A stretch of 20,475 nt of DNA from a virus, in IMG/VR virus record IMGVR_UViG_3300023220_000041, positions 1-20,475 of that record; one strand, written 5' to 3'. The position numbers were made by a program, and so were the translations under genes. The notes under the pieces were generated by a model that did not search any database, was not told the DNA's origin, and saw nothing but the letters and a program-made list of their open reading frames with translations. The number at the start of each line of letters is the position of its first letter. Positions within the stretch are counted from its first letter, which is position 1. Positions 7,392 through 19,923 of the stretch are shown piece by piece.

Positions 7392-7684
7392 TGGCTAGCA
7401 TAAAACTTAAACTAATTCAGGAAGACGAGGCTTATATTAACTTTCATGTAAATCTAGATCCGAGGGGCAGCACAGGGTATGAGTCAACAGTATCCCTTTA
7501 CAATAAAGATGGCGCTGGCTGGACTGCTGAAATGACCTTTGATGATATGCCAGTACAGGAAACGCCAGGAGAAGCGATTGATAGAATGGGTCTGTACTTG
7601 AGGCAGATGGCAACGGCAATGAAAGGTAAGAATATAAAGCATTTAAATATCGATAATTTATTTCAGACGGTATATAAAAGATAA
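7391..7684 (+). CDS. Hypothetical protein (97 aa), last gene before the non-coding region
   Basis: ATG 7391 overlaps the upstream stop. The product (MASIKLKLIQEDEAYINFHV onward) looks like an antiparallel beta sheet (YESTVSLYNKDGAGWTAEMT), then a helix (ETPGEAIDRMGLYLRQMATA). This strand-then-helix layout is typical of small soluble phage proteins. It ends 55 bases before the first strong RNA pairing of the non-coding region, so its transcript may run into that region. No family recognised. Confidence 0.68.
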   Translation: MASIKLKLIQEDEAYINFHVNLDPRGSTGYESTVSLYNKDGAGWTAEMTFDDMPVQETPGEAIDRMGLYLRQMATAMKGKNIKHLNIDNLFQTVYKR

Positions 7685-7738
7685 TTTAACTTGAAATAAA
7701 CGGGAGTAAGTAGTAAGATTTATAACGTAGTAAAGCGG

Positions 7739-7860
7739 TTTGGTAGCTGCTTAAAATGAAAGGTAACAAGGGTTTATAAGTCTGGATTGATGCTTGGGTT
7801 AAACTACCAAAGTTATCTTTCAACCCCTTGTTTCGACGCCAGAACTTATAAGCCTTTTTT
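7739..7860 (+). ncRNA. Structured RNA block with four mutually exclusive pairings and a T6 tract
   Basis: There is no ORF here. Four pairings can be read: 7739-7746 with 7804-7811 (8 pairs); 7757-7767 with 7812-7822 (11 pairs, one G-U); 7765-7772 with 7825-7832 (8 pairs); and 7771-7785 with 7839-7854 (15 pairs, one G-U, one bulged A). The last is followed at once by TTTTTT (7855-7860), like an intrinsic terminator with a 53-base loop. The left and right halves pair in the same order, so the stems cross each other and must compete or form pseudoknots. It ends six bases before the tRNA. It may be a terminator with regulated folding, a processing signal, or the 5' domain of a larger RNA. Confidence 0.45.
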
Positions 7861-7866
7861 AATGTT

Positions 7867-7943
7867 CAGAGATTAGCGCAGTCTGGTAGCGTACCTCCCT
7901 TGGACGGAGGTGGTCGAAGGTTCGAATCCTTCATCTCTGACCA
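7867..7943 (+). tRNA. tRNA-Pro (anticodon UGG)
   Basis: All arms fold: acceptor CAGAGAT with ATCTCTG; D arm GCGC/GCGT; anticodon stem CCTCC/GGAGG around the loop CTTGGAC, with anticodon TGG at 7901-7903; a 5-base variable loop; T arm GAAGG/CCTTC with loop TTCGAAT; discriminator A and an encoded CCA (7941-7943). The total is 77 bases, and the C at position 1 is typical of bacterial tRNA-Pro. It reads CCA (and other CCN by wobble); CCA is a frequent proline codon in the phage structural genes. The cloverleaf is complete and looks functional. Confidence 0.96.
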
Positions 7944-7962
7944 ACCTTTCTAAACAGCTTCT

Positions 7963-8313
7963 AGTATGTATAACTGAGTGAGTTAGTAACAAGTAGATAG
8001 TGTAAAAGCCTCCTTGGCCGGAGTATCTTGACCTGATATGTTGCCAGCACATCACTAGCTCATTCAACTATACATACTTACCACAGGCTAACGCCAAAGC
8101 ACTAATCAGCGCACCGCACAAACGAAGCAGTATTAATCTGCACATCAAAATTAAGACAAAAGTTATCTACATATAATGACGTTAGGCCGCGATAAACAGA
8201 ACGGTATTGCAGGGTATTTGGTTTGGCTCACCAACATGGATAGTGAAAGGGTGTTCTGATTACTGTTATATGATTAATAGATTGAGGTGTTAAGGCAGCA
8301 TCCCTGCAAACAC
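7963..8313 (+). ncRNA. Candidate large structured non-coding RNA downstream of the tRNA
   Basis: No credible ORF lies between the tRNA and the gene at 8356, but strong pairings fill the stretch. Domain 1: 7963-7972 with 8069-8078, then 7975-7987 with 8054-8066, a 23-pair arm with one 2x2 internal loop and two G-U, capped by small hairpins (8010-8023 and 8035-8053). Domain 2: 8086-8093 with 8180-8188 (one bulge), enclosing a hairpin at 8127-8141. Domain 3: 8197-8202 with 8253-8258, enclosing a hairpin at 8218-8234. Domain 4: 8287-8291 with 8309-8313 around 8295-8298/8304-8307. An 8-base match, 8207-8214 with 8302-8309, could link domains 3 and 4 as a pseudoknot. Size, phage origin and an adjacent tRNA recall GOLLD or ROOL RNAs, but identity is unproven. 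Confidence 0.4.
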
Positions 8314-8355
8314 GGTCATTAGATAGCTTATTCTTTAAATTAAATGGAGAGTAAC

Positions 8356-9051
8356 ATGAACAATATAGACTTAAAGAATCTTTTAGTTAGATCCGCCGGT
8401 GAGTTATCATCTGTAATAAATGAACTTAACGGAATTAGGAAAAGCAAGATAACATCGTCTGATTTAGATGAACCAGATTATATAGATATGGAAACATGCT
8501 ACGACCTTTCAATGGCAGCTAAAGAGATTGAAGATGGTCAGGCCGCATGTAGTAAAACACCAGAGCCATTAATATACACCCAGCCTGAAGCCAGAATTAA
8601 ACAACTTGAAGATGCTTTCAATGAAATTACCAGCCTTAGTGAATATGAGGATTGTTATGGCATTGCAGTAGCTCAGCTTGATTTGTCGACGGATAATGAA
8701 GAAAACCCATTAATCTACACCAAACAGATGCATGATGCAGGGGAGCAAGTAAAGGTCGGCATGGAGTGTAGGTACAAGCTTATATTAACTAGATCATCGT
8801 CAACAACCAAGATCGTAATTAAGTATATTAACGATCAATTTATTGTTTGCGCGAAAGTTGGTGCCGCAGGTGAATATATTCTACAGTTGAATGATGTTAT
8901 TTTATTGCCAATAGACCAGCGCACAGATGCAGAGAAAGCTTTTGATGAATGGGCTGTAAATAACGATAACGTGTACGCCACTGAGGATGTGCTTAGACTG
9001 GTTAAGGCGGGGTTTGTGGCTGGTTATAGTGCCGTATGTCGTAAAAACTAG
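8356..9051 (+). CDS. Hypothetical phage protein (231 aa)
   Basis: I start at ATG 8356 (MNNIDLKNLLVRSAGE), because GGAGAG at 8346-8351 fits this start and would lie inside a reading frame begun at ATG 8344. The protein is acidic and mainly helical at the N-terminus. The pentapeptide PLIYT occurs twice (EPLIYTQPEARIKQLE and NPLIYTKQMHDAGEQ), hinting at an internal duplication of short regions. A central strand-rich part (ECRYKLILTRSSSTTKIVIK) is followed by DQRTDAEKAFDEWAVNN and KAGFVAGYSAV, an ending common in phage early proteins of the Ea22/Ead kind. Function unknown. It is the first gene after the non-coding RNA region. Confidence 0.7.
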   Translation: MNNIDLKNLLVRSAGELSSVINELNGIRKSKITSSDLDEPDYIDMETCYDLSMAAKEIEDGQAACSKTPEPLIYTQPEARIKQLEDAFNEITSLSEYEDCYGIAVAQLDLSTDNEENPLIYTKQMHDAGEQVKVGMECRYKLILTRSSSTTKIVIKYINDQFIVCAKVGAAGEYILQLNDVILLPIDQRTDAEKAFDEWAVNNDNVYATEDVLRLVKAGFVAGYSAVCRKN

Positions 9052-19336: not shown

Positions 19337-19558
19337 ATGGTAATAACACCAGAAGATCTAGCCGACTGGAATTCAAACCCAGTCACTAAAGAAGTATTCA
19401 AAGAAGTAGATAAAGCAGTATTAGACTTAAGTAATGAGTCTCCGCTAAGAGATACAGCAGATCAAACAGCTATGCAAGCAGCTTACAATGACGGCGTAAT
19501 AGCAGGCGCTAATTATTTTTCTGATGCATATCAAACGATCAAGGAGGATAACGAATGA
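19337..19558 (+). CDS. Small acidic protein (73 aa), first gene of the co-chaperonin/scaffold operon
   Basis: ATG 19337 has AGGAG in a leader hairpin. The product (MVITPEDLADWNSNPVTKEV onward) is helical and acidic, with AAYNDGVIAGANYFSDAYQT near the end. The WNSNPVTKEVFKEV pattern recalls small proteins encoded next to capsid genes in short-tailed phages. It overlaps the GroES-like gene (ATGA). Likely a small assembly factor; no firm family. Confidence 0.66.
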   Translation: MVITPEDLADWNSNPVTKEVFKEVDKAVLDLSNESPLRDTADQTAMQAAYNDGVIAGANYFSDAYQTIKEDNE

Positions 19559-19923
19559 CACCCGTCAAACCTTTAGGTCATCATGTATTAGTTGAAATAA
19601 TCCCCGTACAATTCAAATCAACTGGCGGTATCATACTGCATTCACAAACTGAATCCGAACGAGAGCGCAAAGGTCGAGACTTAGCAAGAATAGTTGCTTT
19701 TGGCCCTACTGCATACTTGGGCTTTTCTGGTTGTGAGTCCCCGGCAGATTGGGGCGTAAAAGTTGGTGATACGGTGGAATTAAAAGGTCGTTACGATGGC
19801 AAGTTTAGTTCTGTTTCTGATTATGATAGCAAGTATGAAAGCCTCAGATACGTTACAGATAGCGATATTATAGGTGTATTCACTGACGAGATGTCAGCCC
19901 ATTTAATAAATAAGGATAAGTAA
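19555..19923 (+). CDS. GroES-like co-chaperonin (122 aa)
   Basis: The start overlaps the preceding stop. VKPLGHHVLVEIIPVQFKST (4-23) resembles the GroES N-terminal strand. GGIIL (24-28) lies in the place of the mobile-loop GGIVL tripeptide that docks on GroEL. A charged loop (HSQTESERERKGRDLA), then RIVAFGP, VKVGDTVELKGRYDG and YVTDSDIIGVF give the remaining barrel strands. At 122 residues it is longer than host GroES (about 97), with an insert around YLGFSGCESPADWG and a tail. It would replace or modify host GroES to help fold the capsid protein, in the manner of T4 gp31. It lies directly before the scaffold. Good confidence. Confidence 0.82.
   Translation: MTPVKPLGHHVLVEIIPVQFKSTGGIILHSQTESERERKGRDLARIVAFGPTAYLGFSGCESPADWGVKVGDTVELKGRYDGKFSSVSDYDSKYESLRYVTDSDIIGVFTDEMSAHLINKDK

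Follow-up and report, generated by a model that had tools for sequence, protein, structure and literature searches.

A predicted new phage RNA family, large and structured, with a slot for tRNAs

GOLLD and ROOL are large RNAs of phages, often encoded near tRNA islands and of unknown function (PMC12286853); GOLLD, found in phages and prophages, has two folded regions with a variable linker between them, and the tRNAs that this linker sometimes contains lie inside a 14-mer RNA cage (PMC12286853). The stretch of DNA analysed here (‘the window’), a virus record of 20,475 bases with lysozyme, terminase and portal genes, had been predicted to contain a large structured phage RNA with an embedded, complete tRNA-Pro in its only long stretch without genes. 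Both the gap and the tRNA are confirmed. The listing of open reading frames leaves 7685–8343 unoccupied, all other gaps being shorter than 300 bases; the preceding frame stops at 7684 and the next starts at 8344 or 8356, with approximately 660 bases between them that hold no sense frame of at least 50 amino acids. A 64-amino-acid frame with a TTG start on the minus strand was rejected as spurious, being the antisense of the tRNA only. The tRNA-Pro is complete, with an Rfam tRNA score of 66.3 bits (Table 1). Elsewhere, on the plus strand, the window encodes a Dam-type adenine methyltransferase (372–908; E 9e-32), a lambda NinG-like protein (1317–1913; E 8e-21) and a GroES-like co-chaperonin (19555–19923; Pfam Cpn10, E 1.7e-5).

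Direct blastn searches with the window RNA against phages gave no match. A search with the terminase in IMG/VR returned 35 loci, one of which (L012) has an RNA copy 64% identical over 295 bases, lacking the tRNA-Pro and with a degenerate tRNA nearby (29.5 bits). The 5′ part of L012 matches a gap of 612 bases, left without annotation, in Vibrio phage phiV208, and this gap in turn matches 37 Vibrio phages; further searches found 33 records with one type of 3′ domain, and the copy in Vibrio phage K233 matches 88 Vibrio records, with 80% or more of the copy covered in 66 of them. Pseudoalteromonas phages HS1 and HS5 also have the RNA, and pattern scans of IMG/VR added approximately 25 contigs once chance matches had been set aside. 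The relatives, many of them from marine Vibrio phages, thus amount to over 100 records for Vibrio, the two phages of Pseudoalteromonas and these contigs. Four pattern matches (L076, L079, L087 and L104) were discarded as chance. The 5′ part of locus L055, used as a query, returned 321 records, mostly sharing the promoter region only. A loose descriptor of P2 and its U-tract (see below), scanned over the terminase relatives, produced false positives, some of them within genes, and L019 alone held up.

Working from the 5′ end, members of the family share a common order of parts (Table 1): a promoter; a 5′ domain composed of P0, PK0 and the interleaved helices P1 and P2; a ‘slot’; the long-range helix P_LR, which closes the 5′ domain together with the slot; and an exchangeable 3′ domain, the whole RNA measuring approximately 490–760 nt. 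The loop of P0, 6–10 bases long, pairs with a downstream segment to form PK0, whilst P_LR connects the base of P0 with the sequence directly 3′ of the slot, its 5′ strand overlapping P1 in the window copy. The promoter is the one promoter-like site found on either strand of 7600–8400, where 2.4 would be expected by chance, making it weak evidence alone; in the relatives that we read, sigma70-like sites lie directly upstream of P0.

Table 1. Predicted parts of the RNA in the window copy
Feature	Span	Strand	Sequence or paired segments	Remark
Promoter, sigma70-type	7691–7719	+	TTGAAA-N17-TAAGAT	predicted start of transcript near 7726
P0 hairpin	7733–7752	+	7733–7738/7747–7752	found in relatives too
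PK0 pseudoknot, 8 bp	7739–7811	+	P0 loop TTTGGTAG (7739–7746) with CTACCAAA (7804–7811)	
P1 helix	7758–7821	+	GAAAGGTAAC (7758–7767)/GTTATCTTTC (7812–7821)	interleaved with P2
P2 helix	7768–7856	+	AAGGGTTTATAAGTCTGG (7768–7785)/CCAGAACTTATAAGCCTT (7839–7856)	swap test (see text)
U-tract after P2	7855–7860	+	U6	position terminator-like
tRNA-Pro	7867–7943	+	anticodon UGG (TGG in DNA), encoded CCA	occupies tRNA slot
P_LR long-range helix	7758–7950	+	GAAAGG (7758–7763)/CCTTTC (7945–7950)	closes 5′ domain and tRNA slot
P4 long hairpin	7964–8077	+	7964–7972/8069–8077; 7976–7987/8054–8065	
H5 helix	8171–8271	+	ATATAA (8171–8176)/TTATAT (8266–8271)	crosses H1 and H2
Type A 3′ core domain	8178–8334	+	covariance model R1	107.8 bits, E 7e-18; window in training set
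H1 helix	8185–8317	+	GGCCG (8185–8189)/CGGTC (8313–8317)	encloses 3′ core
H3 helix	8197–8258	+	CAGAAC (8197–8202)/GTTCTG (8253–8258)	crosses H2
H2 helix	8208–8308	+	TGCAGGG (8208–8214)/CCCTGCA (8302–8308)	
H4 hairpin	8218–8234	+	TTGGT/ACCAA	almost invariant

The 5′ domain is the common part of the family and the 3′ domain comes in at least three types: type A in the window, L012, K233, phage 1.131.O and IMG/VR contigs; type B in most others, with H1 and H2 common to both; and a third in L067, L069 and L105. Among the terminase relatives of the window the type A core occurs in L012 only, L019 keeping the 5′ domain and P4 without it. In type A, H5 and H3 cross H1 and H2, and the 3′ core is thus a double pseudoknot. 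Three long-range pairings had been named in the original prediction, two of which, 8197–8202/8253–8258 (H3) and 8207–8214/8302–8309 (H2), show covariation in relatives; the third, 8086–8093/8180–8188, is not conserved, and the bases of its 3′ strand are partly those that form the 5′ side of H1, a supported helix. The promoter, PK0, P1, P2, P_LR, H1 and H5, the most telling parts of the RNA, are all additions to that prediction. One 34-kb contig, IMGVR_UViG_3300028045_000047 (L075, L081), carries two differing copies of the 3′ core, one of them at the contig end.

The whole region folds better than shuffles, at −186.7 kcal/mol against a mean of −161.9 (z −4.6; 20 dinucleotide shuffles). Its parts, folded separately, have a modest advantage only, with z −2.7 (5′ part) and −1.95 (7944–8343), from which it might be entertained that the stems are chance products of AT-rich DNA, or that the region is a DNA element such as an origin; because of these smaller values, folding energy by itself is not decisive. 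Covariation was assessed with an alignment-free ‘swap test’, in which the 5′ strand region of a helix is paired with the 3′ strand region of its own sequence and with those of all other members, the mean energy of the native pairings then being compared with 20,000 permutations. With helix regions picked after the sequences had been viewed, eight helices pass at z −4 to −15: in the 5′ domain (27 non-redundant members) P2 at −15.1, P1 at −7.2 and PK0 at −6.4, the last weakened by P0 being mis-located in several members; P_LR at −5.3 (20 relatives); and in the type A 3′ core (n = 14) H5 at −8.7, H2 at −6.4, H1 at −6.1 and H3 at −4.1. Both strands of PK0 change in concert among relatives, and P4, of approximately 23 bp, is kept with compensatory changes in L012, L080 and L084.

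A covariance model trained on the type A core (R1) locates type B cores at the equivalent position (E 0.001–0.36), with no other match at E ≤ 1. In R1 alignments, which are fitted to the structure, 86.3% of cells pair over 30 distinct 3′ cores, against 26–40% when slid, and none of 500 shuffles reaches the covariation score; for type A alone the figures are 88.6% against 28–41%. Paired cells are richer in G-U than in A-C (8 to 1 and 13 to 7), weakly favouring the plus strand as the folded RNA, and the tRNA and the promoter share this orientation. Because of the covariation in the swap tests and in the R1 alignments, which extends over dozens of divergent copies, we reject both chance stems and a DNA element, giving them next to no probability. 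R1 found nothing in 398 Pseudomonadota genomes, a sample that may lack suitable Vibrio and so does not show absence from prophages; the sole match of a type B pattern in genome contigs, on a Rhodobacteraceae contig, was set aside as chance.

On sequence grounds we regard it as near certain that the RNA of the window is real and belongs to a new phage RNA family whose members are large and structured. The ‘large structured phage RNA’ of the original prediction is strongly supported by homologues in many phages, by strong covariation and by a tRNA lying within the fold. Searches of Rfam 15, at both gathering and relaxed thresholds, matched only RF00005 (tRNA), with L051 and L080 matching nothing; it is this lack of any Rfam match besides tRNA that supports a new class. 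We found no earlier description of this RNA family in the open-access literature.

The slot is occupied by one to three tRNAs, by a degenerate one or by a plain stem, or is empty. In addition to the tRNA-Pro of the window, we see Trp, Arg and Gly in phage Seahorse, Met and Arg in vB_VaM_H2, Trp and Arg in 1.116.O, and Ser and Arg in L092/L098; a degenerate tRNA in phiV208, NF and 242E40-1 (annotated as tRNA-Und in the last); and, in other copies, the stem GTGTCTG/CAGACAC or nothing. T-arm motifs number 22, some of them within real tRNAs, against 1.7 in shuffles. P4, present in some members including the window, contains such motifs in L080, and in L084 the same hairpin is itself a degenerate tRNA (Rfam tRNA 34.2 bits). 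Decayed tRNAs with intact T-arms and oversized anticodon or variable regions lie in L080 (1749–2500, minus strand), L084 (2520–3200, minus strand), L012 (3623–3731) and L051 (6110–6205); these have apparently been captured, then reused as stems.

Real tRNAs with an encoded CCA, sitting in the slot of several phages, are also what would be expected of an ordinary phage tRNA cluster, in which structured spacers aid processing or shield the tRNAs from host anticodon nucleases and the RNA domains themselves have no role. We consider this quite unlikely: many members have both domains with no tRNA (L055, L059–L063 and L072) or with a decayed one only, and covariation in the helices of both domains is strong all the same. 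With so many members lacking a tRNA, its carriage cannot be the sole role of the RNA either.

Nature has also provided reduced versions of the locus. In Vibrio phage BT-1011 (L064, MW009675; 1480–1760) the 5′ domain is followed by no more than the opening bases of a tRNA before the next gene begins; relative to Seahorse and vB_VaM_H2, this is a natural deletion of the tRNAs and the 3′ domain that removes most of the slot. In V039C the promoter region alone is kept. Many phages without the RNA nevertheless conserve the promoter together with an inverted repeat, CCCCACTTTGCATTTGTGTGGAGTGGG or a similar sequence (for example K217 (L073), 1995–2060, and V039C (L065), 1500–1560), and this element may therefore be a shared late-promoter operator. 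From these reductions, the restriction of the type A core to L012 among the terminase relatives, the unconserved downstream gene and the placements in L099 and HS5 (see below), we conclude that the RNA behaves as an accessory, modular element.

As to what it does, we think it somewhat probable that this is a stand-alone accessory RNA scaffold carrying tRNAs, analogous to GOLLD. The parts would be transcribed as one RNA, which would act in its own right as a scaffold and not as a leader tied to a single gene, and which would serve to carry, present or protect tRNAs and captured tRNA-like folds during infection, as proposed for GOLLD. In agreement with this, the helices are kept despite sequence change, homologues occur in unrelated phage backgrounds, and the downstream gene is not conserved (a phosphatase, methylases, an HNH nuclease and unknowns). 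Against it, the RNA would be split into two pieces whenever a live tRNA was processed, and the 3′ domain mostly ends directly upstream of a gene on the same strand, in the manner of a leader.

A leader of the late or accessory operon is indeed a serious rival, albeit one that we judge improbable: the RNA would act in cis by antitermination or attenuation, with P2 and the U-tract forming a regulated terminator. HK022 put, an antitermination RNA of approximately 70 nt with two hairpins, offers the model. The possible likeness is one of role, that of a structured leader with which a phage operon opens; the RNA of the window is several times larger than put, pseudoknotted and tRNA-bearing. The RNA does follow directly on the promoter, many of the phages have terminase genes 1–6 kb downstream on the same strand, and at least five U follow P2 in nearly all members; this pairing of helix and U-tract resembles an intrinsic terminator and could, in most members, release the 5′ domain only. 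The Pseudoalteromonas phage HS5 and the Vibrio phage K233 nevertheless keep P2 with the U-tract absent, the HS5 copy lies inside the head gene cluster, after the terminase, and the 3′ domain of L099 has its end directly against that of a convergent gene; such a role would, moreover, require neither tRNAs within the RNA nor the exchange of 3′ domains.

Taking the stand-alone scaffold a step further, a possible though doubtful extension is a new class of ornate phage RNA that forms a tRNA-holding particle, by itself or together with proteins, and has repeatedly captured tRNA genes as structural stems, a live tRNA first decaying and then becoming a plain helix in the same slot. A further independent tRNA-carrying class would suggest recurrent coupling of tRNAs to large RNA folds in phages. 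The family occurs in small phages isolated on Vibrio that can be cultured in the laboratory (V. natriegens, V. alginolyticus and V. parahaemolyticus are among them), and its natural copies range from three tRNAs through a single one or a decayed one to an empty slot, alongside relatives without the RNA or without its 3′ half; with such variants to hand, the roles of the tRNA and of each domain are directly testable.

Amongst described RNAs, the noncoding RNA of approximately 800 nt between gp139 and gp140 of ICP1 (PMC7567579) is likewise large, comes from a Vibrio phage and occupies a gene-free gap of approximately 1 kb, and it is abundant in ICP1. We rejected it as a relative: R1 has no match there and only a chance-level match elsewhere (E 0.22), its sequence is without P2/U-tract and without the ATAAACAG core, and ICP1 has no tRNAs; the ICP1 RNA may be a separate class. 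The ICP1 gap (L106, 10098–11108, minus strand) ends in a strong intrinsic terminator and does not resemble the window family. The long noncoding RNAs of phage K (PMC9241854) are abundant, large and near tRNA genes, in a staphylococcal phage, and are likened here by description alone.

The original prediction had left open a divergent member of GOLLD or ROOL or a new class, and it is the second of these that stands. Size, location in phages and a tRNA in the linker are similar (PMC12286853), and yet a very divergent GOLLD or ROOL RNA is, in our estimation, very unlikely. The GOLLD model (RF02032) matches neither the window nor eight other phages at E ≤ 10 and is absent from a cmscan of the window; the ROOL model (RF03087) gives the same result in the nine records and the window cmscan, weak evidence alone since control genomes also gave none. 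ROOL has 574 model positions and forms a homo-octameric cage. What it shares with the window family is that of a large, structured RNA encoded by phages and frequently close to tRNA islands (PMC12286853); the difference lies in the missing covariance-model match. The likeness to GOLLD goes further, with two folded regions and tRNAs in between in a large phage RNA, but the common and exchanged ends are reversed: in published GOLLD the 3′ region is universally conserved and the 5′ region less so, whereas in the window family a common 5′ domain is joined to an exchanged 3′ domain.
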